From the NCBI RefSeq assembly GCF_009931655.1, contig NZ_CP047984.1:4109001-4173000 (forward strand): a DNA stretch of 64,000 nt. The letters run 5' to 3'. Origin of the DNA: Pontibacter russatus (lineage in GTDB: Bacteria; Bacteroidota; Bacteroidia; Cytophagales; Hymenobacteraceae). Under the pieces are notes generated by a model. That model saw nothing but the letters and a program-made list of their open reading frames with translations. It was not told the origin of the DNA and searched no databases. Positions 15,941 to 62,108 of the stretch are shown here, in pieces. The position numbers and the translations under genes are program-made. The first letter of the stretch is position 1, and every line of letters starts with the position of its first letter.

Positions 15941-16795
15941 ATGGAAAGAGACAACGAATATCATAACCGCCACAACAGCGACCGGCAGCGACGCCAGGAC
16001 AACGAGAAGTTTGAGAACTACAGAGACCGCTACACCAGCCGCGGCAACTACTACGGCATGCGCGACACGGACGCAGAATACCGCAACATGCGCAGCACCG
16101 GCAGCACCAACTACGGGTCAGGGCCGGTAGGCGGATACGACGCCAGCAGCTACAGGGGGGGCGGCGATCGGCATAACCAGAACCACTACCATTACGGCGA
16201 CCCCAACCCCTATATGGGCAACGACCGGAACGGGGGCTACGAGCGGACCAGGGGCACCGGCTGGCGCGACAACAACGACAGGTACAGCCACTACGGCAGC
16301 AACCGCACCGACGACCGGGAGCGTTACGACCGCCAGGATAACAGCTACCAGTACGGCGACCAGGGCCAGGGCAGGCGCTACAGCGACTTCGGCCGCGACG
16401 AGGGCCGCACTTACAACCAGCACACGAACCGGGGCTATAACGCCGCAACCGAGGACAGCTACTATGACCGCTCTGACTTTGACCACGACAGGTCAGACAA
16501 CGACTACCGTGGCAGCAGCCGCAACCCGCAGCGCAACCTCAGCCAGTGGCAGGACCGCTACAACGACAGCGACGACTTCCGCTACAGCGGCCGCATCCAG
16601 TCTTCCGGCAGCGACCGCGGTGATACCTATGCCACCGGGCTTTACGCCTCAAACCGTGCCTATAACAGCGACAATCCCTCTGACAGCGACGGAGATCGCA
16701 GCAGCAGCCGACAGCGCCGCAGCGGCCGTTCCGGCCCCGACTACTCCAGCCGCTCCTCTATCAGCGATTACGGGGCAAGGGAATACCGCGGGTAA
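15941..16795 (+). CDS. Intrinsically disordered Arg/Tyr/Asp/Gly-rich protein
   Basis: Unknown function. 284 residues made almost wholly of Arg, Asp, Asn, Gly, Ser and Tyr; I count about 32 Tyr, one Lys and no Cys. No hydrophobic core, no signal peptide, no membrane segment. Short motifs recur: RYxx, NYY, SYY, DRxxY and SSR. Such Arg/Tyr sticker patterns with polar spacers are known from proteins that form condensates or bind RNA; applying that here is inference. The frame is genuine: ATG at 15941, a clean stop and a perfect terminator 20 bases later, despite competing frames in this GC-rich repeat. Its placement next to catalase suggests a stress role. A run of seven G at 16155-16161 sits inside it. 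Confidence 0.8.
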   Translation: MERDNEYHNRHNSDRQRRQDNEKFENYRDRYTSRGNYYGMRDTDAEYRNMRSTGSTNYGSGPVGGYDASSYRGGGDRHNQNHYHYGDPNPYMGNDRNGGYERTRGTGWRDNNDRYSHYGSNRTDDRERYDRQDNSYQYGDQGQGRRYSDFGRDEGRTYNQHTNRGYNAATEDSYYDRSDFDHDRSDNDYRGSSRNPQRNLSQWQDRYNDSDDFRYSGRIQSSGSDRGDTYATGLYASNRAYNSDNPSDSDGDRSSSRQRRSGRSGPDYSSRSSISDYGAREYRG

Positions 16796-21431: not shown

Positions 21432-21450
21432 ATTGCCGTAGCCATATATA

Positions 21451-21490
21451 AACAAGAAAAGCCCCTGCCCAAAGCATGGGCTTTCTTGTT
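21451..21490 (+). terminator. Terminator after the efflux gene
   Basis: Stem AACAAGAAAAGCCC/GGGCTTTCTTGTT with one bulged A and a short loop. It sits just after a CCATATATA stretch. Confidence 0.75.
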
Positions 21491-21642
21491 CAGGGGGATT
21501 TTCAGCAGGTTTTATGTTTTAATATTTGCGATACACCGTATAAACCGGCTACTTTAGGAATAGCGGAAGGCGGAGGTGTGCCCGGGCATATATAAACCGC
21601 TGCGCCCGCGCCCCTTGTTTTAACCAGAATCGTAACCCCCAC

Positions 21643-23163
21643 ATGAAGCAGCAGGCTATAATCGGCATGGATATCGGTACGACCAGTACCAAGGCGGTGG
21701 CTTTCGACAGCGCCGGGAATGTGCTTTTCCAGGCTGCCGTGGAGTATCCCATTATCAGCACGCAGCCATCCTATGCTGAGCAGGACCCGGAGGTGGTGCT
21801 GCAGGCGGTGCTGGACGCCTTCCGGACGGTGGTCCGCCGGATGCGCGATGCGGGCCTTGCCCCGGAGGGCGTCTGCTTCAGCAGTGCCATGCACAGCCTG
21901 ATTGCGGTGGATGCGAAGGGGCAGGCGCTCACCAACTGCATCATCTGGGCCGATACGCGCAGCATTGCGGAGACTGCCGGCCTGAAGGAAAGCGCCGCCG
22001 GGTTCGATATATACCTGCACACCGGCACGCCGCTGCACCCCATGTCGCCGCTGCCGAAGCTGTGCTGGCTGCGGGAGCACGAGCCGGATGTCTTCCACAG
22101 CGCCTCAAAGTTCATCGGCATTAAAGAGTACGTTTTCTTCATGCTTTTCGGAGAGTATAAGGTAGATTACTCCATCGCCTCGGCCACCGGGCTGTTCAAT
22201 ATCTTTTCGTTTGAGTGGCATCAGGAGGCCCTGGAGGTGGCAGGCATTACGGCGGAAAGGCTGTCGGAGCCCGTGCCGCCCACCTACGTGTTCCGGAACA
22301 TGCTGCCCGCCTACGCCACTCTGCTGGGCATTCCGGCCTCGCTCCCTTTCGTGATTGGCGCCAGCGACGGCTGCCTGGCCAACCTGGGCTCCAACGCTGT
22401 CAGGACGGGCGGTGCAGTGGTGACAATTGGCACCAGCGGTGCCATCCGGGTGATGGCGAAAAAACCGGCCACCGACAAGAAGGAGCGCATTTTCAGCTAT
22501 ATCCTCACGGAGCAGCACTTTGTGCTGGGCGGGGCCGTGAACAACGGGGGCGTGGTGCTGCGCTGGTGCCGCGATAACTTTTATACCCTGGAGGCCGCTG
22601 CCGCCCGGCTGAAGCACACAGATCCCTACGACCTGCTGAACGAGAAGGCCGCTGCCGTGCCGGCCGGGTCTGATGGCCTGGTGTTCCTGCCCTACCTGCT
22701 GGGCGAGCGGGCCCCTATATGGGACCCCCTGGCGAGAGCCTGCTTCTTCGGCGTGCATTACAACCACACCCGCGAGCACTTCCTGCGGGCGATGATGGAG
22801 GGCGTGATCTTCGGGATGTACAGCGTAGGGCTGGCGCTGGAGCAAACGGTGGGGCCGGTGGAGGTGATATATGCCAACGGCGGCTTTTCGCGCTCCAGCC
22901 TGTGGGTGCAGATGCTGGCCGATGTGTTCAACAAGAAAGTGCACCTCACCGACACCGTGGAGGGCTCTGCCTTTGGCGCGGCCATTATGGGCATGTACGC
23001 CCTGGGCCATATCCCCAGCCTCGAAGATGCCGCAGACATGATCCAGGTGAAGCAGACCTTTGTGCCCGACCCGCAGCTGCACACACGCTATATGCAAAAC
23101 TACGCACAGTTCGAAGCGCTTTACCCCGTCCTGAAAGACGACTTCCGGAATGCCGGACAGTAA
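21643..23163 (+). CDS. gntK: Gluconokinase (FGGY carbohydrate kinase)
   Basis: ATP-dependent phosphorylation of gluconate to 6-phosphogluconate in the cytoplasm, feeding the pentose phosphate or Entner-Doudoroff route. 506 residues, the size of FGGY kinases rather than of the small E. coli GntK. Seen: the N-terminal phosphate loop GMDIGTTSTKAVAFD, NCIIWADTRS, the metal/substrate region VIGASDGCLANLGS, the ATP-site IGTSGAIRV, and ANGGFSRSSLWVQMLADVF. Sequence could also suit xylulose or other sugars, but the gluconate permease 97 bases downstream makes gluconate the likely substrate. Probably an operon with that gene. Confidence 0.9.
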   Translation: MKQQAIIGMDIGTTSTKAVAFDSAGNVLFQAAVEYPIISTQPSYAEQDPEVVLQAVLDAFRTVVRRMRDAGLAPEGVCFSSAMHSLIAVDAKGQALTNCIIWADTRSIAETAGLKESAAGFDIYLHTGTPLHPMSPLPKLCWLREHEPDVFHSASKFIGIKEYVFFMLFGEYKVDYSIASATGLFNIFSFEWHQEALEVAGITAERLSEPVPPTYVFRNMLPAYATLLGIPASLPFVIGASDGCLANLGSNAVRTGGAVVTIGTSGAIRVMAKKPATDKKERIFSYILTEQHFVLGGAVNNGGVVLRWCRDNFYTLEAAAARLKHTDPYDLLNEKAAAVPAGSDGLVFLPYLLGERAPIWDPLARACFFGVHYNHTREHFLRAMMEGVIFGMYSVGLALEQTVGPVEVIYANGGFSRSSLWVQMLADVFNKKVHLTDTVEGSAFGAAIMGMYALGHIPSLEDAADMIQVKQTFVPDPQLHTRYMQNYAQFEALYPVLKDDFRNAGQ

Positions 23164-23260
23164 AATGGGGCAGGGGAGGTATCATATATAAATAAATTCT
23201 ATATATTATGATGCGGCATGCCGCTTTCACGGATTCTAAACACTACCTAACCGCTACACC

Positions 23261-24577
23261 ATGTCGCTCCTCATCGTCTTACTGGGCGTTATCGCACTGC
23301 TTGTCCTGACCATTGTTTTGCGGCTGAACGCCTTTATTGCGCTGGTGCTGGTGGCGCTGGGCGTAGGCGTGGCCGAAGGCATGGCCGTGCGGGAAGCACT
23401 GGCGTCGCTGCAGAAGGGAATGGGAGACACGCTGGGCTCGATAGTCCTGATACTGGGTTTTGGGGCGATGCTGGGCAACCTGCTGTCGGAGAGCGGCGCG
23501 GCGCAGCGCATCACGTATGGCCTGATAAAGCGCTTCGGCAAGCGCCATATACAGTGGGCCATGGTGCTGACAGGCTTTATCGTGGGCCTGCCGATGTTCT
23601 ACAACGCCGGTTTTGTGGTGATCATCCCGCTGGTGTTTGCCGTGGCCGTGTCTGCCGAACTGCCGTTGTTGTACGTGGGCATTCCGGCGGCGGCCGCCCT
23701 TTCCGTGACGCATGGCTTTCTGCCGCCGCACCCGGGGCCAACAGCCATCGCGGTCATCTTCGGGGCCGATATTACCCTCACGCTGTTATATGGCCTGTTG
23801 CTGGCGGTGCCCACCATCATCATAGCCGGACCAATTTTCTCGCGCTTCCTGACGAGGGTCAAGGTCGATCCGCCCCAGAACCTCTTTATCCTGAAGCCGC
23901 TGGCGGAGGACGAGATGCCGGGCTACGGCATCAGCATTTTTACGGCGCTTGTGCCGATAGGGCTGATGGCCACCTCGGCGGTGCTGTCCATCGTGCTGCC
24001 TCCTGAGTCGCCGGTGCGGCAGCTGTTCGAGTTCATCGGCGATCCGGTGATGGCGCTGCTGATCTCGGTGCTGGTGGCTATCGTAACGCTGGGGCTGGCC
24101 AGGGGAAAGGCCATGCCTGCCATCATGAAGATTTGCACGGACTCCATCGCCAGCATCGCCATGATTCTGCTGATCATCGGCGGCGGCGGCGCCCTGAAGC
24201 AGGTGCTGGTGGACAGCGGCGTCGGGAATGAGGTGACGGCCCTGCTCAGCGGCACGGATTTCTCGCCCCTGCTGCTGGCCTGGCTCATCACGGCGCTCCT
24301 GCGGGTGTGCCTCGGCTCGGCTACGGTGGCGGCCATCACGGGAGCCGGCATCGTGCTGCCGCTGGTGACCAGTGCGGGCGTGAGCCCCGAGCTGATGGTG
24401 CTGTCCATCGGTGCGGGCAGCCTTATGTTCTCGCACGTAAACGACCCCGGCTTCTGGATGTTCAAAGAGTACTTCAACCTGACAATCCCGCAGACCCTGG
24501 CCACCTGGTCTATCATGGAGACGCTTGTCTCAGTCATGGGCCTGATAGGCGTGCTCTTGCTGGAGCCCTATGTGTAG
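23261..24577 (+). CDS. gntT: Gluconate:H+ symporter (GntP family)
   Basis: Inner-membrane permease bringing gluconate in with protons. 438 residues with about 12 hydrophobic spans. Characteristic parts: LILGFGAMLGNLLSESGAAQRI, GLPMFYNAGFVVIIPLVF, LSVTHGFLPPHPGPTAIAV, and near the end LSIGAGSLMFSHVNDPGFWMFKEYF. These match GntP/GntT/IdnT proteins; the exact member (gntT or gntP) cannot be told. It pairs with the FGGY kinase upstream. No terminator is visible directly after it. Confidence 0.93.
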   Translation: MSLLIVLLGVIALLVLTIVLRLNAFIALVLVALGVGVAEGMAVREALASLQKGMGDTLGSIVLILGFGAMLGNLLSESGAAQRITYGLIKRFGKRHIQWAMVLTGFIVGLPMFYNAGFVVIIPLVFAVAVSAELPLLYVGIPAAAALSVTHGFLPPHPGPTAIAVIFGADITLTLLYGLLLAVPTIIIAGPIFSRFLTRVKVDPPQNLFILKPLAEDEMPGYGISIFTALVPIGLMATSAVLSIVLPPESPVRQLFEFIGDPVMALLISVLVAIVTLGLARGKAMPAIMKICTDSIASIAMILLIIGGGGALKQVLVDSGVGNEVTALLSGTDFSPLLLAWLITALLRVCLGSATVAAITGAGIVLPLVTSAGVSPELMVLSIGAGSLMFSHVNDPGFWMFKEYFNLTIPQTLATWSIMETLVSVMGLIGVLLLEPYV

Positions 24578-25025
24578 CAACGCCTCCACCTGCCGCACAG
24601 GTTTCCGGGACAGAATTTATATATAAAACAGGGGCAGGGTTGTGTAAAACCAACTTTAGCCACCCGGCGCGGCGGTTTGAGCGGCTTCGGGATATACTCC
24701 GGATATTTGCGCGCCTTGTAAAAAATTACTAATATGTTCCCCCAATGCGCCAGGAACTTTTCAGGATGAAGTAATCTTAAACAGCTTTCAGGCAGTTTGC
24801 CACCAAAACCAGAGCAAGTTTCTTAGCATATATGGCGTCAGTAGCTGATTCCGTTCCAGACAGGCTGCTACCGATGCCTGGACGCGCAAGTGGTTGTTAA
24901 GCGACGATTTTCTGGCAGTTGGTCACAAGCTGCATAAGTTGAAGCATTTTCCTGTTAGCGGCTCAGGCTGGCATATTTTACGCATAAAAAAGACACACCT
25001 TATATATAGCATACACATTACCCGC
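24578..25025. other. Intergenic stretch before the GMC pair, no gene seen
   Basis: About 450 bases. It must hold the promoter for the following two-gene unit. A GGATATTTGCGCG sequence near 24700 only partly fits the -7 box, so I do not call a site. A longer in-frame opening upstream of 25026 has no signal-peptide character. Confidence 0.5.
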
Positions 25026-25559
25026 ATGAACAGACGCGTAGTAATCAAACACATGGCGCTGGCCGTCACCGGCCTGGTGCTGCTGCCGGGCTGCGACCTG
25101 GGCAGCAAAAAAGCGGCGGCCCAGGAGATGCAGCCATTTCTCTCCCCAGACCAGGAAGGGCTGCTGGCGCAGGTGGTCGATACCATCATCCCGGCCACTG
25201 ACACGCCCGGCGCCAAAGAGTTGAATGTACACCTCTTCGTCCAGAAAATGGTGACGGACTGCTATGAAAAAGAGGCACAGGAAAACCTGGTAAACGGCCT
25301 GGATGCTTTAGAGGCGAAAGCGAAGAAAGCACACGACAAAGCCTTTGACGCCTGCAGCGCCGAAGAGCGCATCGCGCTGCTGCGGGCGATGGAGCAGTCG
25401 GGCGACACAGGTGAGCAGGAATTTTACAAACTGGTGAAGGGGCTGACCGTGCGGGGCTATATGAACTCGGAGTACGTGATGATGAACCTCACCCATTACG
25501 AAGCAGTGCCCGGCCATTACTACGGCTGCGTGCCTGTCGATTCCAAAACCCTTTCTTAA
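25026..25559 (+). CDS. Gluconate 2-dehydrogenase subunit 3 family protein (Tat lipoprotein)
   Basis: Small partner subunit of an exported GMC-type flavin dehydrogenase. 177 residues. MNRRVVIKHMALAVTGLVLLPGC has both a twin-arginine start and a lipobox Cys at residue 23, so it should be Tat-exported and lipid-anchored. The mature part shows FLSPDQEGLLAQVVDTIIPATDTPGAKELNVHLFVQKMV and TVRGYMNSEYVMMNLTHYEAVPG, both typical of the family. Its job is probably to chaperone and carry the signal-less flavoprotein encoded seven bases downstream across the membrane. The chosen ATG follows a TATATAGC sequence; earlier in-frame Met codons lack signal character. Confidence 0.9.
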   Translation: MNRRVVIKHMALAVTGLVLLPGCDLGSKKAAAQEMQPFLSPDQEGLLAQVVDTIIPATDTPGAKELNVHLFVQKMVTDCYEKEAQENLVNGLDALEAKAKKAHDKAFDACSAEERIALLRAMEQSGDTGEQEFYKLVKGLTVRGYMNSEYVMMNLTHYEAVPGHYYGCVPVDSKTLS

Positions 25560-25566
25560 GACAATA

Positions 25567-27279
25567 ATGGCGAACATAGCGGGAGACGCAGCAAAAAACA
25601 GGACCTACGATGCCATCGTGATTGGGTCTGGCATCAGCGGTGGCTGGGCAGCGAAGGAACTGACCGGCCACGGCCTCAAAACCCTTGTGCTGGAGCGTGG
25701 CAAAGACGTAAAGCATATAAAGGATTATCCCACCACCTCCAAAAACCCGTGGGAGTTTGAGCACCGCGGGCAACTGCCGGTCGAGGTGAAAAAACAGAAC
25801 CCGATTGTCAGCAAGTGCTATGCTTTTTATGAGGGCACAGAGCATTTCTTCGTGAAGGACGCCGAGCATCCCTATGTGCAGGAGAAGCCTTTCGACTGGA
25901 TACGGGGCTACCAGGTGGGCGGAAAATCATTGCTTTGGGCGCGGCAGACGCAGCGCTGGAGCGATTTCGACTTTGAGGGACCTGCCCGCGACGGCTTTGC
26001 CGTGGACTGGCCGATCCGCTACGCCGACATCGCGCCCTGGTACAGCTACGTGGAGAAATTCGCGGGCATCTCCGGTAACAGAGACGGCGTGCCCCAACTG
26101 CCGGACGGGGAGTTTCTGCCGCCGCACGAGATGAACTGCGTGGAGAGCTTTTTTCAGAAGCAGGTGGCCAGCAAGTACAAAGACCGCCAGGTGATTATGG
26201 GCCGCGCCGCGCATATAACCGCGCCGCAGCCCATACACCTGGAGCAGGGCAGGGCCAAGTGCCAGCACCGCACTATCTGCGAGCGCGGCTGTCCGTTTGG
26301 CGGCTACTTCAGCAGCAACGCCTCCACCATTCCGTGGGCAGCCAGAACGGGCCTCATGACCCTGCGCCCCGACTCGGTGGTGCATTCCATTATATATGAC
26401 GAGCAGAAAGGAAAAGCCACCGGGGTGCGCGTGATCGACGCCAACACCAAGGAGGAGATGGAGTTTTATGCCAACATCATTTTTGTGAATGCCGCCGCGC
26501 TGAACACGAACCTGATTCTGCTGAACTCCACCTCCAGCCGCTTCCCGAACGGCTTTGGCAACGACAACGGGCTGATGGGCAAGTACGTGGCCTTCCACAA
26601 TTACAAGGCCCGCATTTCGGCCGAGTATGACGGCCACCTCGACTCGACCACCGACGGACGCCGGCCGAACAGCCCCTATATCCCCCGCTTCCGGAATGTG
26701 TACAAGCAGGAGACAGACTTCCTGAGAGGCTACGCGGCCGGTTTCAGTGCCAACCGCAGAAGCGTCACCAACCAGGATGGCCTGGGCGCAGACCTGAAGC
26801 AGAGCCTGCTGAACCCGTCGCTGGGCGGCTGGTCGGTTGGCTCGCACATGATGGGCGAAACCATCCCGAAGGAAACCAATTACGTGGCCCTCGACAAGTC
26901 TCTGAAAGATCCTTACGGCATGCCGCAGCTCAAAATCTCTGTTGTTTATGACGAGAACGATGAGAAAATGACGAAGGATTACCTGGAGCAGATGACCGAA
27001 ATGTTCACGCATGCCGGCTTCACAAACATTCAGGCCACCAACACGGACCGGGCACCCGGCCTGGATATACACGAAATGGGCGGCGTGCGCATGGGCAAAG
27101 ACCCCAAGACATCGCTGCTGAACAAGTGGAACCAACTGCACGCCTGCAGCAACGTGTTCGTTACAGACGGCGCCTCCATGACGTCCACCTCCACGCAGAA
27201 CCCGTCCCTGACCTATATGGCCCTCACCGCCCGCGCCGCAGACCACGCCGTGCAGGAACTGAAGAAGAGGAATATCTAA
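25567..27279 (+). CDS. GMC family oxidoreductase (FAD-dependent sugar dehydrogenase)
   Basis: Flavoprotein of 570 residues that probably oxidises a sugar or glycoside hydroxyl. Seen: the FAD-binding AIVIGSGISGGWAAKEL (about residues 16-32), GYQVGGKSLLWARQTQRW, the Cys motif TICERGCPFGGYFSSNAS, and the C-terminal LDIHEMGGVRMGKDPKTSLLNKW and FVTDGASMTSTSTQNPSLTYMALTARAADH. The latter holds the GMC His/Asn active-site pair. No signal peptide: it would leave with the Tat subunit encoded seven bases upstream. Similar pairs include gluconate 2-dehydrogenase and glucoside 3-dehydrogenase; the cytochrome subunit of those enzymes is not in this window. Substrate remains open. Confidence 0.92.
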   Translation: MANIAGDAAKNRTYDAIVIGSGISGGWAAKELTGHGLKTLVLERGKDVKHIKDYPTTSKNPWEFEHRGQLPVEVKKQNPIVSKCYAFYEGTEHFFVKDAEHPYVQEKPFDWIRGYQVGGKSLLWARQTQRWSDFDFEGPARDGFAVDWPIRYADIAPWYSYVEKFAGISGNRDGVPQLPDGEFLPPHEMNCVESFFQKQVASKYKDRQVIMGRAAHITAPQPIHLEQGRAKCQHRTICERGCPFGGYFSSNASTIPWAARTGLMTLRPDSVVHSIIYDEQKGKATGVRVIDANTKEEMEFYANIIFVNAAALNTNLILLNSTSSRFPNGFGNDNGLMGKYVAFHNYKARISAEYDGHLDSTTDGRRPNSPYIPRFRNVYKQETDFLRGYAAGFSANRRSVTNQDGLGADLKQSLLNPSLGGWSVGSHMMGETIPKETNYVALDKSLKDPYGMPQLKISVVYDENDEKMTKDYLEQMTEMFTHAGFTNIQATNTDRAPGLDIHEMGGVRMGKDPKTSLLNKWNQLHACSNVFVTDGASMTSTSTQNPSLTYMALTARAADHAVQELKKRNI

Positions 27280-32685: not shown

Positions 32686-35142
32686 TTAGCGGGACTTCCT
32701 GGCCTTTTTCTGAAAGAGCACGGCCTTTTGCCATATTTCTGCCCTCACAAATGTACCCGTAATGGTGGGATTGCCGGTATCAACCGTGGCTTCCGCATGC
32801 ACCAGAATGTTCCGGGGCCTGCTGTTTCCCGTCAGCTTCGCGAACAGCGCCCGAAACGCTTCACCCACACCCAGGCTGATCGGCACGCGCACCGTGTTGT
32901 CGCCCTGCGGCATACGGTAGGTCCGGTTGACGGTGGCGCTGGCGTCGAGAATGTTCTCCACACAGGCATCGTACGTCAGGTCGCGCACGGCAAGCTCCTG
33001 CACGTTCGCGTTTTGTACCTCTACCAGCGCCTCCAGCAGGAGGCCCCTGGTAAAACTGAAGCCCCGCAGCTTTACCTGCTGCAGCGCCACGACGGGTGTA
33101 TCGGGCGTGGCTACCTGCAGCGTGGTATGGAACGTGCTGCGCTGCCGGGGCAGGTCCTCCACCTGGTACACCAGCGTCACGCTTTGTTTCAGGCGCAGGC
33201 TGTCGTGCTGCTGCTGTTGGTGCAGGTACTGTTGCCAGCGCGCAGCGTTAACCCCCAGCCTGAGCCAGGCCGATTGGGAACTATCCGCAGGAAGCACCTT
33301 TCCGACGCTCTCCCGGCTTATGGCGAAGGTGTCATTGGCGTGGCTCAGCGTCAGCAGCAGGCTGTCTATTTTAAAATTTACCGGCAGGGGGTTCTTCACG
33401 TGGAGGTTGAGCTCAACCCAGGCCGTGTCGTGGTGGAGGTTGACATATAATGAATCGATACTTGTGATGCGCGGGGTGAGTTTTTTACCGCCCATGCCAT
33501 TCCCCATTTCCAATACTCCGCTAAACTCAAAGTCAAGGGTGGGAGAGCCGATCATGTCGTTGCTGCTCACCAGTTCTGCCGTGGCCTGCAGATCGTATTT
33601 CCAGTTTGGATCTCCCCTGAGCGCTTTGTCGACAAGCTGGTTCACAGCCTTGGCAGAAAGCTGGACAGGCACCTCCACCAGCGAATCCCCCCTGCCTATA
33701 TGGATGGGCTCCCGGGTATGCCCCGTCAGCACCAGGTTTTCCCCCAGGTCCAGGGTATAGTCAAGGTTGCGGAGGCGCAGGTCGGGCAGGTTGGAGTGTT
33801 GCACTTTCAGGGACAGGGTGAGGGAGGCGCCCTTCTGGGGGCTGAGTTCCTGAAGCGAAAGATCGGCTACCTGTATGCTTGCCTGCCCCTGCACCGGCAC
33901 CTGTACCTGCCGCTTCAGCTGTATGCGCTGCCGCTCTGCCCCGGGCAGGTCGTAGAGCAGGTTCAGCGCAATTTCTATATTTGCCGTATCCTGCCCCTGC
34001 ATGTTCTTCATAAATTGGTCATAGGCGCTCTCGTCCACCAGCAGCCCGAGGTGCAGCGTCTGGTTTGCTGATTTCTTCAGGACCGTCTCAAAGTCTTTTT
34101 TACCGCTGGCGATGACGTTGCCGTTGTGGCGGATAAAATAGGAGGCGCTGTCGATATAGAAAGGAATGGGAGCAGGGTTGTGTACCACCACTTCCGCCTG
34201 CAGCAGCGTCTGCTCCTCGCCCGAGTCGATTTCGAGGCGCTTCACCTGGCTGAGGGAGGGCATATAACCGGTCCCGGAGCCCATTTTGCCCACATCCAGG
34301 GCGCCTGCTTTTTCTACTGTCAGCTTAAAGCTGTCGAGCAGCCGGTGGCTGCTTTCGATCTGTGCCGTAACGCGTGCGTCGTAATCCCACTTGCCGCCTC
34401 CCGTCAGCATTTTTTTGATCAGGGCGACCGCGTCAGAAGTCTTTAGTTGCAGGGGTATCTCCAGCAGTCTGCTTCCACCCTGCTGCACGCGGAAAGTGGT
34501 ATCCACCCGCCCGGAAATCGTCAGCGTGTCGCCTACCTGTATGCTGTATGCAAAGTCTTTTATCCGGAGCTCGGGCAGGTTTTGGTTGGTGGCGTCAATC
34601 TTGAGCAGAAAAGAGTACCCTTCGTTCACGCTGAAGCTCCGCACCGTCACATCCTTCAGTTGCATCGAGGGGGCTTTGGGCACAGGCACGGTGAGGTGCC
34701 GGTTCAGGGTGACGGACCGGGGGCTGATCAGGGGCAAATCGAAGAAGACATCGGCTTTTACAGCCAGTTGGATGCTGTCCTTCTCCTGCTGATCCTGCAG
34801 GTGCCGCCGGTATTTGTCGAAGTGGAGCATCAGCCGGAAGTCCAGCACTTTGTCTGCCAGGGGCGGCAGGGTCTGGGCCTCCGTCATCTGGCCCCACCCC
34901 AGTAGCGTCCCCTTGTCGCTGATGGTATAATGGATGCTGTCGAAGGTGATGGGCAGCGGCAGCCTGTTCTGCACCTGCACGCCTGCCCTCACCAGTGCCG
35001 TGTCGTTTGTCAGCTCGAGCCTGAGGGAAGAGACATTCTCCACCTTTGGGTGGTATATTTTTTTCAGGAAGTAATACAGCCCGCCCCCGACAAGTGCCAG
35101 CAGCACTACCGCGAGAATCGCCCACTTGACTTTGTTATGCAT
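32686..35142 (-). CDS. Membrane-anchored protein with six LEA2 (WHy-like) domains
   Basis: 818 residues. One N-terminal membrane helix (WAILAVVLLALVGGGLYYFL) without a cleavage site, the remainder outside the cytoplasm. Six LEA2-type beta domains follow, arranged as three A-B pairs. A units start LRLELTNDTALVRAGVQVQN, LEIDSGEEQTLLQAEVVVHN and LYVNLHHDTAWVELNLHVKN. B units show NLPELRIKDFAYSIQVGDTL, NLPDLRLRNLDYTLDLGENL and NVQELAVRDLTYDACVENIL. LEA2 domains are linked to desiccation and stress in plants and occur in bacterial exported proteins of unknown role. No partner gene is obvious. Confidence 0.87.
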   Translation of the reverse strand: MHNKVKWAILAVVLLALVGGGLYYFLKKIYHPKVENVSSLRLELTNDTALVRAGVQVQNRLPLPITFDSIHYTISDKGTLLGWGQMTEAQTLPPLADKVLDFRLMLHFDKYRRHLQDQQEKDSIQLAVKADVFFDLPLISPRSVTLNRHLTVPVPKAPSMQLKDVTVRSFSVNEGYSFLLKIDATNQNLPELRIKDFAYSIQVGDTLTISGRVDTTFRVQQGGSRLLEIPLQLKTSDAVALIKKMLTGGGKWDYDARVTAQIESSHRLLDSFKLTVEKAGALDVGKMGSGTGYMPSLSQVKRLEIDSGEEQTLLQAEVVVHNPAPIPFYIDSASYFIRHNGNVIASGKKDFETVLKKSANQTLHLGLLVDESAYDQFMKNMQGQDTANIEIALNLLYDLPGAERQRIQLKRQVQVPVQGQASIQVADLSLQELSPQKGASLTLSLKVQHSNLPDLRLRNLDYTLDLGENLVLTGHTREPIHIGRGDSLVEVPVQLSAKAVNQLVDKALRGDPNWKYDLQATAELVSSNDMIGSPTLDFEFSGVLEMGNGMGGKKLTPRITSIDSLYVNLHHDTAWVELNLHVKNPLPVNFKIDSLLLTLSHANDTFAISRESVGKVLPADSSQSAWLRLGVNAARWQQYLHQQQQHDSLRLKQSVTLVYQVEDLPRQRSTFHTTLQVATPDTPVVALQQVKLRGFSFTRGLLLEALVEVQNANVQELAVRDLTYDACVENILDASATVNRTYRMPQGDNTVRVPISLGVGEAFRALFAKLTGNSRPRNILVHAEATVDTGNPTITGTFVRAEIWQKAVLFQKKARKSR

Positions 35143-39443: not shown

Positions 39444-40883
39444 TCACCAGACATAAGTGCCGACCGCGCCGCTGCCCAGCGTAGACGTAGCCTGCTGGTT
39501 GTTGTAACTGATGTTGAAGGTCTGGGGCATCTCGCTGTCGTTCAGCACGATGAGCACCCGCTGTCCGTTGGGCGTTCTGTAGGCCACGTTGGGCAGGCCG
39601 CCGGGCATGTTGCTGCCGATGCGGACAGAGCCGGGGCGCACAAACTTGGAGGCGTGGGCGATGATATAGTAGGCAGGGTTGCGGGTCACAGTGTTGTCGT
39701 CGAGGGTGAGGGCCCCGAGGCACTGGGTGCAGCCGCCTTCGGTGTGGGGGTTCTGGTTCGGGTCGGCGGCCAGGTTCCACTCCAGCACCGTTTTAGCCCA
39801 GTTGCGGGGTGCCTTTATCACGAGGTTCTTAATATGCCAGGCCAGGTCTCCGGCGAAGTTGCCTGGCGCGCCAATCCACTGCTCCGTAAAGTACAGGTTC
39901 TTGTCGGGGTAAGCGGCATGCACCTGCGACAGCGCCTCGATCTCACCGCCATATAAATGGAAGGCTGCACCGTCTATATACTTTCTTGCCTCCGGGTCGT
40001 TCAGCACCGTGATCGGGTAATCGGGGCGGTCGGCGTTGTGGTCGTAGATGATGATTTTCGTATCGATGCCCGCCTCCTCAAACGCCGGGCCCAGGCTTTG
40101 TCTGATAAAGGCGGCCTGCTCTTCCGGCAGCATCAGCAGGCTGGGGTTGTTGCCGGGGTGCAGCGGCTCGTTCTGGATGGTGATGGCATCGATACGGATA
40201 CCTTCTGCCGCCATGCCCTGTATATACTTTACGAAATACTTCGCGTAGGCATCGTAATATTCCGGCTTCAGGCTGCCGCCCTTGGAGTTGTTGTTTGTTT
40301 TCATCCAGGTGGGCGGCGACCACGGCGAACCCATGATTTTTATATCCGGATTAATGGCGAGTATTGCCTGCAGCATCGGGATGAGGTGCGTGCGGTCAGG
40401 AGCGAGGCTGAATTTCTCCATTTCCGTATCGGTCTGCCCGGCAGGCAGGTTGCTGTAGGAGAAAACGCTGTCGTCCAGGTCGGAGGCCCCGATGCTGACG
40501 CGCAGGTAGCTCACCCCGATGTTGTCGCCGCTGGTGCCGAACAACTCCTGCAGCAGGGCTTTCCGCGCCGGAGCGTCCATCCGGTGCAGCAACATGGCGC
40601 TGCCCCCGGTCAGGGTGTAGCCAAACCCGTCCATCTCCTGGAAAGTCTCGGTCTCCTTTACGGTGATGGTGGGGTGCTCTCCGGGATTGTCGCCGAAGGG
40701 CAGCGGCGTGGGCTGGAGTTCAAACAGCGCAGACTTGTCCGGGTTGGTCAGCCAAAGCTCTGCTGATGGCGCGGCGGAGAACGTGTCGACGGTGCTGGCA
40801 GGGGTTTTCCGGCAACCGGTAAAGAGGCCCAAAAGCAGCAGCAACGCTGCAATGCCAGGCAGTATTCGGAATGATTTTCTCAT
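39444..40883 (-). CDS. GH30 glycoside hydrolase (glucosylceramidase-like) lipoprotein
   Basis: Retaining glycosidase of family GH30, lipoprotein, about 479 residues from ATG 40883. Signal LPGIAALLLLLGLFTGC with lipid Cys near residue 23. Catalytic domain: FQEMDGFGYTLTGGSAMLL, SYLRVSIGASDLDD, MGSPWSPPTWMKTNN, and the two Glu motifs ITIQNEPLHPGNN (acid/base) and LYFTEQWIGAPGNF (nucleophile). The C-terminal beta domain ends with PNGQRVLIVLNDSEMPQTFNISYNN. Related enzymes split beta-1,6-glucans or glucosylceramide; the exact bond is unknown. The 10 residues before Met 40883 look untranslated. Confidence 0.93.
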   Translation of the reverse strand: MRKSFRILPGIAALLLLLGLFTGCRKTPASTVDTFSAAPSAELWLTNPDKSALFELQPTPLPFGDNPGEHPTITVKETETFQEMDGFGYTLTGGSAMLLHRMDAPARKALLQELFGTSGDNIGVSYLRVSIGASDLDDSVFSYSNLPAGQTDTEMEKFSLAPDRTHLIPMLQAILAINPDIKIMGSPWSPPTWMKTNNNSKGGSLKPEYYDAYAKYFVKYIQGMAAEGIRIDAITIQNEPLHPGNNPSLLMLPEEQAAFIRQSLGPAFEEAGIDTKIIIYDHNADRPDYPITVLNDPEARKYIDGAAFHLYGGEIEALSQVHAAYPDKNLYFTEQWIGAPGNFAGDLAWHIKNLVIKAPRNWAKTVLEWNLAADPNQNPHTEGGCTQCLGALTLDDNTVTRNPAYYIIAHASKFVRPGSVRIGSNMPGGLPNVAYRTPNGQRVLIVLNDSEMPQTFNISYNNQQATSTLGSGAVGTYVW

Positions 40884-40973
40884 ATTTGTCACCGGAGGAT
40901 ATATGCTAAACATCCTCTAATAAGCAGAAACCGCCGCAGTATTTCAAATTTCATCGGCTATAAAGGTTGTGGC

Positions 40974-41625: not shown

Positions 41626-41769
41626 GGGAAGGCAACTGTGGCTTGGGTTTGAGGCGGAGGGTACATGCAAAGGCTATTTCATATAGGGCTTTCATTATAT
41701 ACGGCTTCCCAAGAAAAATGCTTGCTAATGATATATAGATTAATTAATATTAATGAGACCTGCATTTCT

Positions 41770-42495
41770 ATGAAGACAAAACTCCTGCTGCCCCTGCTGC
41801 TCCTGCTGTTGCTTGGCGGCTGTATTTCCGAGGAGGACGATTTTATCAGCAAATACTGCCCCGGCTCCTGCACGGTTGTCAAAGGCAGGCTCACCACCGG
41901 CGATGGTTCCGAGCCCATGGCGGGCGTAAAGCTGAACGTGTACTGGCACAGCTACGAGAGTTACTTTAAACTTGGCTATTCCCAGCGCCGCAAGGCCGTC
42001 GCCATCACTGACCAGATCGGCAACTATGAGCTGCGTTTCCTGCTCCGCGACGACGAACTAAACCTAAAAGGACGTTATGAAAACGGGTATATAGTGGTAG
42101 CGCCAGTGCTGGAAGAAGGCCGGTATATTACCTGCCGCGGGGAGACAACCATATATGAGGAGTTTGGACTGAGGCGCGACACAACGATTACGCTTGACTA
42201 CACCCTTCCAAAAGCCGCTTACCTCGACCTGACGCCTAAAAACACAGAGGCCATGCAGCCGGGCGACAGCTTTCGCGCCGAAGTGGATATAAGTGCGGGC
42301 CGTAGCAACACCGAACGATGCAACACAGGTGTTATCTGGCACCAGGGCTACTCAAGCGCCACCACTTTAAACATTCCTGCAAACAGGCCGCTGACGCTGC
42401 GCATCACCAGCATAAAGAACGGCACCGCCACCGAAACAGTAAAGACTATCCAACTGAAGCCCGGCGAGCGCCTCCCCTACGAACCTGCTTTCTAA
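41770..42495 (+). CDS. Hypothetical lipoprotein with carboxypeptidase-regulatory-like domain
   Basis: Exported lipoprotein of 241 residues. The signal MKTKLLLPLLLLLLLGGC has lipid Cys at residue 18. The next part (VVKGRLTTGDGSEPMAGVKLNVYWHSYESYF, then KAVAITDQIGNYELRFLLRDDEL) resembles the beta-sandwich CarboxypepD_reg-type folds common at Bacteroidota surfaces. The C-terminal half is unassigned (FRAEVDISAGRSNTERCNTG). The stop is followed after one base by the barrel gene's ATG, so the two are surely translated together. Possible role: a surface partner of that barrel. Confidence 0.72.
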   Translation: MKTKLLLPLLLLLLLGGCISEEDDFISKYCPGSCTVVKGRLTTGDGSEPMAGVKLNVYWHSYESYFKLGYSQRRKAVAITDQIGNYELRFLLRDDELNLKGRYENGYIVVAPVLEEGRYITCRGETTIYEEFGLRRDTTITLDYTLPKAAYLDLTPKNTEAMQPGDSFRAEVDISAGRSNTERCNTGVIWHQGYSSATTLNIPANRPLTLRITSIKNGTATETVKTIQLKPGERLPYEPAF

Positions 42496-44434: not shown

Positions 44435-47400
44435 TTACTCCACTACCAGCTTTGATTGCTTACTACTTCCTGATGCGGTACTGGCTTTGATAATATAGAC
44501 GCCCTTGCTCAGTCCAGTGGCTATATTCATATCTGCCTCGCCTGTGTCCTGCCCGTTGGTGACCAGCAGTATGGTTTTCAGCATACGCCCAACACCGTCA
44601 TGCAAAGTAACTGTGACAGCCTCGTTTGTGCCTGCGGTTTTGACCGCTATATATACTTTGTCGCCCGTGTTCGGGTTGGGATATACCTTCAGTTCCAGGC
44701 CATGCCCTTCATTTTCTTCAAAAGCCTTGATAGAAAGAGCGGATGAATCGCTGGCTACTAATGGCTTCGTTTCTTCCGACACTTTCTCCACTTCGATAGC
44801 TGCAAGAAGCGCATAGTTAACCACGGAGGTTAAGTCGATGTTGAGGGTGTCATCGTTTACCACAACCTGCCCGAACTCTTTTACCACGGCTTTGCCCGCT
44901 CCCGCTTCGCTGTAGAGATCGTAGTTGCTGAGCACCCGGTTTCCCTCCAGGTCCACATGGAAAACGCGGTCGCCTGATGCGCCTGATACTTCCCCGCCTG
45001 CAATGCCGAAGTAGGGTTCTATGAAATGGAGCCGCACCTGGTATGAGCCGTCATTCTCAACCGGAATGGCGTAGCGGAGTGGTTCTTGCGGAGAGGCATA
45101 CCGGTACCGCAGGTACAGGCTGTCGTCGGTGGTGCCCGCCACATCGAAAGACTTGGAGGAGGAAATGCCGCCGGAGAAATAGTTGTCTGCGCTCCAGGTG
45201 CGTGCCTGGCTATCTGTGAAAGCAGGGCCCCCGACATTGATGCGCGTTACTTTCTGCTGCTGGGGATATATGGCTATGGGTTTGTAAGCCTCAAACTGAA
45301 CGGTTTGTCCCTGTATAGTTGCTGTGACATTTCTGTCTGTCTCTGCCATGGTGACGATGCCATTGCTTAGCTGCAGCACAAAGCCGCAGTTGGCACTGAA
45401 GGTCGCGTCGGCGGAGCCGTCGCCGTCCAGGTCGATGGAATCTCCCTCACCCCCAGCCGCCGTTCTGCCTATATAGGTGTTGCCTGTTACTCTTCCTACT
45501 AAGGTTGAGAAGTCATTCCCCGAACTGCTGTAACTGTCCCGTACAGCCCCGGCACTGGGGTCCTCCGGCCCGCGCGGATATATAAAAGTGGTGTTGGTGG
45601 CAGCGCCGGAAACCATTCTCACGGGAAGGAGGTCGCCATAAGCGCTTCTCCTGACAACGTCTGTGGCCGTAATGGCTGGTGCGGGATGTAGGGCGATAAA
45701 GTTCTGCTCATCGGCTTCACCGGGGAAGGATACGCTGGCAGTGTGAGAGGTTAATTCGTTGCGGAGACTGGTGGCTCCATCAGAGGTTAGTACAGGCCAA
45801 GTAACGCCAAAGTCGGTTGCAGTCGCGCTGGAGGTAAGCGTGGAGCGAATGCCGTCTGGGGTAATTACGAAATCATTGGTGAAGGTGGGACCCTCCCGGC
45901 CGTTTTTGGGTTTATAAACTATGCGGCAGCGCACCAGCAATGGGTGCGTAAACTGAGTGGAGAATACCGCTTCGTAGCGATCCGGCAGGCTCGACAGCCG
46001 CACCCATTTATCGCCCTCCAGGAAAGTAGGCGCAAATGAAACTCCCAGTCCATATTTCGTTTCTCTTACCCCATCTGACGGTCCTAACCGGGAGTCCCAT
46101 CCTGTTTTGCCGAATCGCACAACACCCAAGGTAGTCCAGTAGATGCCATAGGCGGGCTTGGTTGCCCCCCGCAGGTTTACCTGCATGTGCATTCCGCCCG
46201 CGTTTGCGACGGCAGTCGCCAGGTTTCCGCCACTCACCAGCGTATAGCCTCCTATTTCGTTCGGGGCGGGTTGCTCGGGTATAGGAGAAATGTGGCGGAG
46301 GTAGTTCTCGGCCATATGGTACATCATATAGCCGTTGTAGTTGGTGAAGTGGCTGTAGATAGCGAATCCTACCCTGTCGGCGGGGTCGAAGTGGTTTTTG
46401 GTGACGGAGTAGGTGCCATCTTCCCTTCTCCACCGCTGCACGCTCTGGAAACCCAGCGCGGCGGCCCTGCGATACTGCCCTGCCAGGCGGGTCTCTCCGG
46501 CCTTATAGGCCATTTCAGCCATTGTCTCATAGCCGTTGGCCAGCACGATGTCGTTCCAGGTGTGGTTGCCGCTGCGCCCCCCGGCAACGCCCTGGCCCGA
46601 AGGGTCCTGCAGGAGCAGGCTGGACTGGCTTGCTCTTTCCAGGGTGTGCAGTATCTCGTCTCTGGAGGTGCCATCGTAGCCGTCTGCAATCATGGCCAGC
46701 AGGTTCCCCCTCGCCGCCGACTCGTACGGCCAGGTGTCCGGATCGCTGGTTTGGTCGTGGTAAAAATTCCAGGGGTTGTTGGTGAAGCGGGACTTTTGGG
46801 TGTTTATCCAGCTATCCTCCAGCCAATCAACAGCGCGGGCCTTGTCTATATACCCGTTCTTCGCCCGGTACCATTCGCCCTTCATCGCATACGTTCTCCA
46901 GTTGTGGGTGCGGCCCCTGAGGATAAGCTCCACCGGTTTTTCCATGCGGGTTTTCCAGGTTTCCAGCACCTCCACCGGCACATGCGGTGCGTAAAAGGGA
47001 ACAGCGTTAGCCAGCGGCGCCAGAAAAAACTCGCCGTGGTTATCAGGTATGGCACCTGCCCCCCTGGCTATTTTGCCGGTGGCGCTGTTCATGGCCGCCA
47101 CCCCCTCGTCCAGCAGGTCCATGGCGCGGCCCGAGGAGATCAGGGTTCCAACTGCAAAGGCGAAATAGGGTGTGCTGTACTGCACCTCGCCCCGCCGGTA
47201 CGGATCTATGATAGCCCCGCGCTGATTCTGAAAGGTAACGACCTCGCGCACAATTCCCTCCACCCGGTCCAGGTAGGCTTCACGCGGGATATTCAGGGGA
47301 TGCCAGGGCTTTGCCGTCAGGTGGTATTCTACATCGGGTAGATGGGAGGGCAACGAAACCTCCTGGGCGTGGACTTGAAGAATGACAGCAGCAAGCAATG

Positions 47401-47476
47401 CTGCCGTTGCAACCAGCACTCTCCCGGATCGAATTTTTCCAGTAATCAGGAGTGCAGCAAGGCGAGGTTTTCCCAT
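44435..47476 (-). CDS. Large secreted protein: alpha-barrel enzyme-like domain, malectin-like domain, T9SS sorting tail
   Basis: 1013 residues, secreted by a Sec signal (VLVATAALLAAVILQVHAQ) and exported by type IX secretion: the last 85 residues are the sorting domain (LKVYPNPNTGDKVYIAV, VTLHDGVGRMLKTI, LSKGVYIIKAST). Residues about 40-430 look like an (alpha/alpha) toroid: WHPLNIPREAYLDRVEGIVREV, YSTPYFAFAVGTLISSGRAMD, NYNGYMMYHMAENYLRHI; the next 250 form beta sheets (HMQVNLRGATKPAYG, VYKPKNGREGPTFTNDF). The layout recalls polysaccharide lyases but I cannot name a family. Residues about 745-905 are malectin-like (RINVGGPAFTDSQARTWSAD). Near 665-700 lies a repeat DSIDLDGDGSAD. Confidence 0.8.
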   Translation of the reverse strand: MGKPRLAALLITGKIRSGRVLVATAALLAAVILQVHAQEVSLPSHLPDVEYHLTAKPWHPLNIPREAYLDRVEGIVREVVTFQNQRGAIIDPYRRGEVQYSTPYFAFAVGTLISSGRAMDLLDEGVAAMNSATGKIARGAGAIPDNHGEFFLAPLANAVPFYAPHVPVEVLETWKTRMEKPVELILRGRTHNWRTYAMKGEWYRAKNGYIDKARAVDWLEDSWINTQKSRFTNNPWNFYHDQTSDPDTWPYESAARGNLLAMIADGYDGTSRDEILHTLERASQSSLLLQDPSGQGVAGGRSGNHTWNDIVLANGYETMAEMAYKAGETRLAGQYRRAAALGFQSVQRWRREDGTYSVTKNHFDPADRVGFAIYSHFTNYNGYMMYHMAENYLRHISPIPEQPAPNEIGGYTLVSGGNLATAVANAGGMHMQVNLRGATKPAYGIYWTTLGVVRFGKTGWDSRLGPSDGVRETKYGLGVSFAPTFLEGDKWVRLSSLPDRYEAVFSTQFTHPLLVRCRIVYKPKNGREGPTFTNDFVITPDGIRSTLTSSATATDFGVTWPVLTSDGATSLRNELTSHTASVSFPGEADEQNFIALHPAPAITATDVVRRSAYGDLLPVRMVSGAATNTTFIYPRGPEDPSAGAVRDSYSSSGNDFSTLVGRVTGNTYIGRTAAGGEGDSIDLDGDGSADATFSANCGFVLQLSNGIVTMAETDRNVTATIQGQTVQFEAYKPIAIYPQQQKVTRINVGGPAFTDSQARTWSADNYFSGGISSSKSFDVAGTTDDSLYLRYRYASPQEPLRYAIPVENDGSYQVRLHFIEPYFGIAGGEVSGASGDRVFHVDLEGNRVLSNYDLYSEAGAGKAVVKEFGQVVVNDDTLNIDLTSVVNYALLAAIEVEKVSEETKPLVASDSSALSIKAFEENEGHGLELKVYPNPNTGDKVYIAVKTAGTNEAVTVTLHDGVGRMLKTILLVTNGQDTGEADMNIATGLSKGVYIIKASTASGSSKQSKLVVE

Positions 47477-48446: not shown

Positions 48447-48935
48447 ATGAAAAAGTTTTTATTGTTTCCCCTGTTCCTGTGTCTGTTCCTGACTTCCTGT
48501 AAAGACGAAGAGATACCAGAGCCTGAGCAAAAGCCCGGTTTCGTTGACGCTGATATAAAGAAGCAAGTAAAATATTCGTCAGGCTTCATCGGTGAAAAGG
48601 CCGCGACAGCCATCATCCATATATGGGACGCTGACAGTGCAGATTTCGATGTGGAGGCCTCTGGTTCTGACCTGCGTATAGGTTATGCTTACGACAAGGT
48701 GTCAGGAGAATATAAAACGTCGAAATACGGATCCATCGGCAGCCGCATGAGTGAGCCCGTGGTGCCCGGCAAGTATTTTATATATGTCGTTTTGATGAAA
48801 TCATCCGACAGCGGCAGCATGGCTTATTCCTACACTTACTTCGACGTGGCGGAAGGGAAGGAACTGGAACTTAAAAAGACCTTTAGCCACGATGTTCCCT
48901 CAGAAGCCTACGAGCCGTGGGAGAAGAATAAATAA
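48447..48935 (+). CDS. Hypothetical lipoprotein (162 residues)
   Basis: Exported lipoprotein. Signal MKKFLLFPLFLCLFLTSC with lipid Cys at residue 18, followed by an acidic linker (KDEEIPEPEQKPG). The mature part has a beta-sandwich look (AIIHIWDADSADFDVEASGSDLRIGYAYDK, YFIYVVLMKSSDSGSMAYSYTYFDV) and ends in charged residues. No family recognised. It stands alone in an AT-rich zone, and its stop codon lies within a 22-base perfect palindrome. The codon use is like that of its neighbours, so transfer is not evident despite the surroundings. Confidence 0.75.
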   Translation: MKKFLLFPLFLCLFLTSCKDEEIPEPEQKPGFVDADIKKQVKYSSGFIGEKAATAIIHIWDADSADFDVEASGSDLRIGYAYDKVSGEYKTSKYGSIGSRMSEPVVPGKYFIYVVLMKSSDSGSMAYSYTYFDVAEGKELELKKTFSHDVPSEAYEPWEKNK

Positions 48936-60863: not shown

Positions 60864-62108
60864 TTATCTAAACCCAAAAAGCAACGGAAACAAGAAGAGG
60901 ACAACCACGGCCCACAGGCCGTAAAAGGGCAGGAAAAGTGCTATTGTTTTCCCGACTTCGGCCAGGTCTGACTTCCGGGTGAGCGACCTGAAAAGCTGTA
61001 CGGTGATGAAAAGCAAATTTAGCAGGATCAGCAAATTACTGCCCAGCACAGCCAGCCTGTTGGGCGTAACGCCCCATTCCACGATCCGGAACAGAATGGC
61101 CGACAGCGCAATCCCATTAACCACTACCGTTACCGCTGATAACAGGAAGAGCACCCAGGTGGCCGTTATATTCCCGGTTGTTTTGGAGCTTTCTGCCACC
61201 GAAAAGAAAATGATGGCCATCACTCCGATCAGCAGCAGGTTGAAGATGATCAGGAACTCCCGGTCGTTGTATGGGTCTTTACCGGAATAGATGATGGCAA
61301 GCAGGTAGATGACGAGCATGAGCAACACCAGCGGGCTGAAGATGCGGGCTATCACCGGCGAGACTTTGTTTACCAACTGTGGGTTGGCCTGGGTGAGGTA
61401 GGTGCCGACGATGGGTGCCGCGGCCAGCCCGAAAATACCGACATACTGAAAGTACAGCTCCTCGATCTGAAACCCGATCAGCGAGAAGAGCCCGATCGTG
61501 AGCCCCGTCATGATTGCCCCGGAAATCAGGATAAGCGTTGTCATGACCACCAGCTCGCCGTTGTACCTTAAATAATCGAGCCGCCTGTTATAATCATTCA
61601 GGTTGTTACCCGAAAACGCAGTGCCTAAAAGTACCCACAGCAGCAAGGGCAAATGGATGCAGGCCAGTATCAGCGTGTCGCTGGTGGTGGATATGGGCAG
61701 GGCGTTTACATAGAGGAGCGAGACCAGCATCACACCGAAGACGACAGCAATCCGTTTGAGCTGCAAGTTGTTTTTCCAGGCGAAGTAGGCCGTCAGGAGC
61801 GGCAGAAAGATGAAGCCAATGTTTCTGGGGTAAAAAAAATCTTCGTCAATCTGGAAGACCGCCGGTATTTTCGCAATAAAACCGGCGAATAGCGCAGCGA
61901 TTGCGACATATAACAGCTCCCGGCCGGTGCCCCAGTTAATGTCTTCGCTTTCATAATGCAGCCTCTCGTTCCAGCAATCGGCGAGCAAGTTGCCCCTCAG
62001 CTCGGGGTAAAGCGCGCTGAACTCCCGCTTGAAGGGCGCCTTGTTGTTCCGGTATAATTTTTCGAGGTAACCGGGGTCGTTCAGATGGGAAAGTATTTCA
62101 TTTTTCAT
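60864..62108 (-). CDS. Polytopic membrane protein, possibly DUF4153-like
   Basis: 414 residues: a soluble N-terminus of about 65 residues (LNDPGYLEKLYRNNKAPFKREFSALYPEL) and then ten or eleven hydrophobic spans (LLYVAIAALFAGFIAKI, IAVVFGVMLVSLLYV, VMTTLILISGAIMTGLTIGL, LLLIGVMAIIFFSV and so on). The order of spans resembles DUF4153 proteins in my memory; I am unsure. It is the last gene of a run on the minus strand headed by a winged-helix regulator, so it may be controlled with its small neighbours. Role unknown. Confidence 0.72.
   Translation of the reverse strand: MKNEILSHLNDPGYLEKLYRNNKAPFKREFSALYPELRGNLLADCWNERLHYESEDINWGTGRELLYVAIAALFAGFIAKIPAVFQIDEDFFYPRNIGFIFLPLLTAYFAWKNNLQLKRIAVVFGVMLVSLLYVNALPISTTSDTLILACIHLPLLLWVLLGTAFSGNNLNDYNRRLDYLRYNGELVVMTTLILISGAIMTGLTIGLFSLIGFQIEELYFQYVGIFGLAAAPIVGTYLTQANPQLVNKVSPVIARIFSPLVLLMLVIYLLAIIYSGKDPYNDREFLIIFNLLLIGVMAIIFFSVAESSKTTGNITATWVLFLLSAVTVVVNGIALSAILFRIVEWGVTPNRLAVLGSNLLILLNLLFITVQLFRSLTRKSDLAEVGKTIALFLPFYGLWAVVVLFLFPLLFGFR

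Follow-up and report, generated by a model that had tools for sequence, protein, structure and literature searches.

A secreted Pontibacter russatus protein with a predicted toroid and beta-sheet core is a candidate lyase of acidic polysaccharides

The window analysed here is a stretch of 64,000 nucleotides of Pontibacter russatus (NZ_CP047984.1, positions 4,109,001 to 4,173,000), itself part of a single 4.97-Mb contig. It carries an ATG-initiated open reading frame for a protein of 1013 residues, whose features are collected in Table 1. Behind an apparent signal peptide the product comprises a long core, a Malectin domain (96.4 bits against a cut-off of 23), which is probably a carbohydrate-binding module, and a C-terminal sorting tail above the cut-offs of both models that describe it (PF18962, 33.9 versus 27; TIGR04183, 34.2 versus 23). 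A preliminary description made from the sequence had called the protein a type IX secretion (T9SS) cargo with a malectin-like domain, and reading frame and domain matches both bear this out. The reading frame is real and under purifying selection: over 710 codons the core and its counterpart in Pontibacter sp. E15-1 (L009) give a dN/dS of 0.10 with 0 stops, and the latter compared with the core of Pontibacter pamirensis (L011) gives 0.106, again with 0 stops, while dS between the window core and that of P. pamirensis is saturated.

Table 1. Features of the open reading frame, in window coordinates (protein number = core number + 36)
Feature	Position	Strand	Basis
Whole reading frame, secreted multidomain protein	44435-47476	-	ORF call, relatives, dN/dS
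Signal peptide, about residues 1-37	47366-47476	-	By eye: basic start, hydrophobic stretch, small residues at end
Core, residues 37-746	45239-47368	-	About 700 residues; family-library matches insignificant
Predicted alpha/alpha toroid, core 29-358 (protein 65-394)	46295-47284	-	AlphaFold model; whole-domain alignment; repeated on homologue
Predicted antiparallel beta domain, core 377-692 (protein 413-728)	45293-46240	-	Two models, moderate to low confidence; whole-length matches
Malectin domain, protein 743-890	44807-45250	-	PF11721, E 2.3e-27
Por_Secre_tail / T9SS type A sorting domain, protein 931-1012	44441-44686	-	PF18962, E 4e-8; TIGR04183, E 1.8e-8
Asn192 (core N156), NW motif, candidate carboxylate neutraliser	46901-46903	-	Invariant in 8/8 A3 rows; role inferred from spacing
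Tyr239 (core Y203), candidate catalytic Tyr, 47 residues past Asn192	46760-46762	-	Invariant in 8/8; role inferred
His305 (core H269), GGRSGNHTWND loop, candidate catalytic His	46562-46564	-	Invariant in 8/8; role inferred
His147 (core H111), IPDNHGEFF loop, conserved toroid His	47036-47038	-	Invariant in 8/8
Tyr380 (core Y344), TNYNG loop, alternative candidate catalytic Tyr	46337-46339	-	Invariant in 8/8

The preliminary description had also drawn on GH30, sugar oxidase and permease genes of the region to argue for a carbohydrate role. These genes are present, but the GH30 gene (39444-40913; PF02055, E 7e-45) lies 3.5 kb from the reading frame with other genes between, and the GntP, FGGY kinase, GMC oxidoreductase and Gluconate_2-dh3 genes are 17-24 kb distant, with at most a weak link to it. 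Because of the intervening genes, neither the GH30 gene nor the gluconate-type genes were treated as one locus with the reading frame, and the neighbourhood argument is therefore weak within the window. A GH30-type gene does, however, adjoin the core gene in P. pamirensis, as described below.

Searches of Pfam, NCBIfam and PHROGs gave the core no significant match, PADLOC returned zero matches for it, and a profile of 8 members (A2) searched with hmmsearch against all PDB chains retrieved zero matches at E values up to 10, the solved members of PL33, PL35 and PL39 included. Lyase_8_N of PL8 (PF08124), Hepar_II_III (PF07940) and Hepar_II_III_C have no Pfam match in the window protein or the 8 A2 members, and hhalign of the core gave no signal against 3 PL8 genome members (E 0.9) and an insignificant E value of 0.35 against 15 Hepar_II_III genome members. 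Matches to DUF444/PRK05325 spanning some 34 residues (one of the 8 members in Pfam, E 0.43; NCBIfam E 0.05-0.07) and, in the E. coli member only, to a functionally unassigned PHROG (12 residues, E 0.013) were taken as chance; the NCBIfam GlucurArabfur model (E 8.7e-21) covers only residues 740-996 of the Malectin-tail part and scores far under its cut-off. Elsewhere in the same genome, all 13 other whole-protein matches fall within residues 734-1013, that is, the Malectin domain and tail. A search of open-licence papers found no title or abstract start on the core family. Judged by these comparisons the core appears to be a sequence family of its own, absent from the libraries searched, and may already bear a CAZy number. 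The earlier failure to name a family is thus upheld, and no match to a non-carbohydrate family was significant.

The core family is rare in the genomes searched. With the window's own genome counted, and in samples that overlap, the carriers number 3 among 50 genomes at genus level, 3 among 150 at family level, 2 among 291 at order level, 1 among 295 at class level and 2 among 395 at phylum level; around genome G401 it was found in 2 of 114 genomes of that genome's order and 2 of 244 of its class. A scan of genome contigs restricted to close relatives yielded 4 loci, one each in Pontibacter sp. E15-1 (69% in its best segment, with query residues 37-1013 aligned) and P. pamirensis (72%, residues 14-1013) and two in Paraflavisolibacter caeni (L010 and L012). 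G401 (L016) has a stand-alone version of 733 residues that is about 44% identical, and in G558 the gene is split across two contigs (L018 and L019). Among 72,556 plasmid records, tblastn found a single one, E. coli p13QT31-2, in which 74% of the query aligns at 26% identity (E 2e-39), and among the matches listed for 5426 E. coli genomes only FAM21845, on its chromosome, has at least 80% of the plasmid gene; the other 19 of the 20 listed rows cover 2% only, corresponding to the end of the neighbouring insertion sequence. Viral contigs gave 14 pattern matches, 0 of 14 confirmed, and phages zero matches with the E. coli member as query. The partners of the core vary: a Malectin domain and tail in the window, two Malectin domains and a tail in P. 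pamirensis, an F5/8 type C domain without a recognised tail in both Paraflavisolibacter proteins, and no recognised extra module in G401 and E. coli. The core, joined to varied C-terminal modules or to none, is therefore an independent working part.

Gene contexts of the relatives, in which a selection of neighbours was scanned with profiles and the rest read by eye, involve sugar acids. In P. pamirensis the order is SusC (L020:9921-12971), SusD, a GH29 fucosidase, an AraC regulator, a Zn-dependent dehydrogenase, a dehydratase, GH30_2 and the core. The GH30_2 gene (PF14587, a Pfam family unlike that of the window GH30) directly precedes the core gene, and the dehydratase, which is galactarate/altronate-dehydratase-like, lies in two frames. 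Dehydratases of the galactarate/altronate type act on sugar acids, and may serve fuconate as well as hexuronate, as in Campylobacter. G401 has the order ADP-ribosylglycohydrolase, core, RraA-like protein, enolase-superfamily dehydratase and SBF transporter, the dehydratase being nearest to galactonate dehydratase at 249 bits, under the cut-off of 311. Neighbours in Pontibacter sp. E15-1 are a short-chain dehydrogenase and a ThuA/sugar-dehydrogenase fusion, with a SusD-like gene about 5 kb off.

The E. coli homologue belongs to an ABC-transporter capsule locus with glycosyltransferases and rml (dTDP-rhamnose) genes, and a UDP-glucose 6-dehydrogenase gene lies directly downstream; the gene order is identical on plasmid p13QT31-2 and the FAM21845 chromosome. 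The locus-tag prefix BHT24 identifies the FAM21845 locus as the TBA_3 group 3B cluster of PMC10433991, in which the cluster is listed with udg and rml genes. Acidic capsules were inferred there from udg for 5 of 7 new clusters, among which TBA_3 may or may not belong; within the available text of that paper no function is given for the homologous gene and the word 'lyase' occurs 0 times. In FAM21845 no ATG occurs in frame from the preceding stop codon to the annotated start, and the plasmid homologue starts within the terminal part of an IS630-like transposase gene, so that both copies may have lost their 5' end. Given the missing ATG, the E. coli genes may be decaying.

We modelled the core with AlphaFold (AF2), both for the window protein and for the G401 homologue, the two models resting on the same 8 sequences. 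In the window model (pLDDT 67.6, pTM 0.56) some twelve helices form the toroid, mostly at pLDDT above 75 with loop dips to 38-55, and the beta domain is mostly at pLDDT 50-80, with core residues 372-444 unreliable. The homologue model is better (pLDDT 72.5, pTM 0.78). Both predict an alpha/alpha toroid followed by an antiparallel beta domain, the toroid with high and the beta domain with moderate confidence and with loose superpositions on known structures, which agrees with the toroid-like N-terminal half and beta-sheet middle first proposed from the sequence. The polysaccharide-lyase layout put forward at the same time also gained support, since Foldseek places lyases first over the whole length of both models. 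For the homologue model lyases hold ranks 1-44 of the best 50 (PL35, PL39, PL12, PL8, PL15, PL17, PL21 and PL33), although these 44 superpose only loosely (TMq 0.26-0.46, rmsd 7.8-17.3); for the window model the top match is 3a0o (PL15, E 2e-7).

The best Foldseek matches of the homologue model are the PL35 enzymes GAGase II (8khv, E 1.6e-9, TMt 0.51) and GAGase VII (8khw, E 3.9e-8, TMt 0.52), which share the toroid with antiparallel beta domain and have an Asn and a Tyr about one helical hairpin apart, as do the candidate residues of the core. They differ in showing 10-11% identity with no sequence match and in lacking the Malectin and T9SS modules, while the core is without a His at their usual beta-domain spacing. 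Alginate lyases of PL15, PL17 and PL39 and glycosaminoglycan lyases of PL8, PL12 and PL21 have the same two-domain fold by Foldseek but are 8-13% identical, with neither the Pfam matches nor the hhalign signal sought above. In the VIA comparisons, whose tables concern mainly the toroid so that a family's absence there does not rule that family out, chondroitinase 9o3q covers the toroid of the homologue model together with a portion of its beta domain (Z 18.6, 475 residues, rmsd 5.2). Human dermatan sulfate epimerase 1 (DSE, 6hzn), an epimerase and not a lyase, aligns at 8% identity across the toroid and a large share of the beta domain, reaching beyond the toroid in the homologue model (Z 19.3, 531 residues, rmsd 6.2) and giving Z 19.7 over 473 residues (rmsd 8.0) with the window model. 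The toroid alone is best fitted by AGE-type sugar 2-epimerases and the unsaturated glucuronyl hydrolases of GH88 and GH105 (Z about 19-24; about 18-24 for all matches of these groups), but their matched chains are toroid-sized, without a following beta domain, and 6-12% identical. A common fold need not mean common chemistry.

Candidate catalytic residues were sought in the A3 alignment of 8 rows, which includes the 26%-identical E. coli row and disregards, in the L018 row only, the part that this fragment lacks. Invariant residues of the toroid (core numbering here and below) include D55, E61, Y64, H111, N156, W157, E165, R194, Y203, R265, H269, D273, N325, R332, Y344 and H351, and those of the beta domain D432 and Y577. 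The table of toroid-beta lyases in PMC12088678 lists Asn, His, Asp, Glu or Arg as neutraliser with the Tyr 51-63 residues on (53-63 for Asn), and a His that either follows the Tyr by 130-166 residues or, for PL8 and PL23, precedes it by 7-9. Closest to this spacing is the pair N156-Y203, 47 apart; the alternative pair H269-Y344 is 75 apart. A His 130-166 past the Tyr is absent: H475, the sole conserved His of the beta domain across the 7 Bacteroidota rows, lies 272 away and is Asn in E. coli. Nor is there a His 7-9 residues before Y203. Invariant residues of all kinds are not concentrated in one set of toroid loops (22 of 106 positions, a value reached by 2681 of 20000 shuffles); invariant polar residues, a subset picked after the all-residue test had failed, lean to one toroid end (17 of 82 versus 4 of 51, Fisher p 0.038). 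With a rough Asn/Tyr fit, no His in the third place and mixed clustering, these residues are candidates only.

On balance we lean, with modest confidence, towards a secreted lyase of acidic (uronate) polysaccharide that founds a family unnamed in the libraries searched, which may have a CAZy number. Several observations point this way: the Foldseek ranking of lyases in both models, together with 9o3q and 6hzn extending beyond the toroid in VIA; the predicted order of toroid then beta domain, as in the lyases described in PMC12088678; the sugar-acid and uronate contexts in P. pamirensis, G401 and the E. coli capsule loci; and a core that carries varied C-terminal modules and keeps N156 and Y203 invariant. 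Against them stand zero significant sequence or profile links to lyases, the loose whole-length superpositions, the empty His positions, the better fit of the toroid alone to AGE-type epimerases and glucuronyl hydrolases, the dependence of both models on the same 8 sequences, and the possible decay of the E. coli genes. The secreted polysaccharide-degrading enzyme first suggested is accordingly favoured, as a predicted activity, by fold searches and relatives' contexts. In such a lyase the toroid cleft would bind the acidic polysaccharide, and a polar residue, perhaps Asn192 of the protein, would neutralise the uronate carboxylate; Tyr and/or His would abstract the proton at C5 and donate one to the leaving oxygen, so that the product ends in an unsaturated uronyl residue. 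Anchoring on the substrate would fall to the Malectin domain, and the type IX tail would send the enzyme to the cell surface or medium.

The main rival, which we regard as possible but rather unlikely, is a glycoside hydrolase with a catalytic toroid and an accessory beta domain, cleaving through Asp or Glu. It would account for the toroid matches to GH88/GH105 unsaturated glucuronyl hydrolases (Z about 18-22), for the Foldseek entries of GH105, GH88, GH154 and GH146 with the window model and of GH146 with the homologue model, and for the acidic residues D55, E61, E165 and D273, which are invariant across the 8 rows; the glycoside hydrolase neighbours in P. pamirensis suit it equally. Lyases nevertheless dominate the whole-length ranks of either model, GH146 entries superpose with rmsd above 20, and the matched GH88/GH105 chains are about 330-400 residues long. 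Enzymes of GH88 and GH105 are not known to have the large beta domain.

Less probable by far is a uronyl C5-epimerase acting at the polymer level, like dermatan sulfate epimerase of the same fold, which would tailor capsule in E. coli and degrade or tailor polysaccharide in Bacteroidota. It would explain why 6hzn is among the few VIA rows extending past the toroid and why the E. coli homologues sit in capsule biosynthesis loci adjoining UDP-glucose dehydrogenase. The beta-domain Tyr577 is invariant, and DSE, as described in PMC8006597, uses a second Tyr, Tyr473. Secretion by T9SS with a binding module and a catabolic locus instead suggest degradation, and lyases outnumber DSE in Foldseek, where it ranks 18 for the window model and falls outside the best 50 for the homologue model. 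A non-catalytic carbohydrate-binding or structural protein on an enzyme fold, which would fit the lack of a catalytic set mapped with certainty, is very improbable, as catalytic-type polar residues are kept at 26% identity and lean to one toroid end.

Taking the preferred lyase and the epimerase together, the core family might tentatively be read as a new one of uronate lyases or lyase-fold epimerases that act at opposite stages in the life of a single type of polymer, in secreted degradation in Bacteroidota and in a built-in tailoring or trimming step in E. coli group 3B-type capsule loci. Should this somewhat doubtful extension hold, the capsule, built from UDP-GlcA and dTDP-rhamnose, would hint at what the enzymes naturally act on. 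The lyase reading, if right, would supply an enzyme family missing from the searched libraries, with a substrate clue in the E. coli capsule-locus genes, a possible tool enzyme for work on acidic polymers of capsule-like or exopolysaccharide type, and one protein family common to loci for capsule synthesis and for polysaccharide utilisation.

Scans for promoters and terminators gave about as many hits as chance would (6 versus 4.5 expected and 5 versus 5.6 expected, respectively). The G+C content of the window gene, 0.55-0.58, is similar to that of its left neighbours, so its composition carries no sign of recent import. Across the genome as a whole Por_Secre_tail gave 39 matches, 31 of them above the cut-off.

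Four Glyco_hydro_88 matches, three of them above the cut-off, were found in the P. russatus genome, and this is the kind of enzyme that would act on lyase products. On the same genome's contig (G000:C1:2682488-2684283), a Glyco_hydro_88 match comes immediately after a Malectin/tail protein that shares 53% identity with the C-terminal part of the putative lyase. Elsewhere on this contig, a Hepar_II_III_C match (G000:C1:3974978-3975625) carries a single TAG in frame and is neighboured by T9SS-tail proteins at 3.952-3.970 Mb.

Within the window, the GH30 gene scored 402 bits against the NCBIfam model of the BT3312 endo-1,6-beta-glucanase, under the cut-off of 700, and a separate row of consecutive genes constitutes a gluconate/sugar-acid set.

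Sugar-related features of the window
Feature	Position	Strand	Description
GH30	39444-40913	(-)	Similar to endo-1,6-beta-glucanase BT3312
Consecutive genes	20199-27279		MFS transporter, FGGY kinase, GntP permease, Gluconate_2-dh3 subunit, GMC oxidoreductase

In the capsule locus of the E. coli plasmid, ISEc33 (IS630-like) directly adjoins the homologue (L026:8485-11722), whose annotated start falls within the end of the transposase gene. At the P. pamirensis locus (L011:3846-5497), an altronate/galactarate-dehydratase-like gene is divided between two overlapping frames.

Pfam searches of window ORFs 41665-42495, 48447-48935, 15941-16795 and 60864-62108 returned no match at the limits applied. 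An 818-residue protein (window 32686-35142, minus strand) contains five LEA_2 (late embryogenesis abundant) stretches in Pfam.
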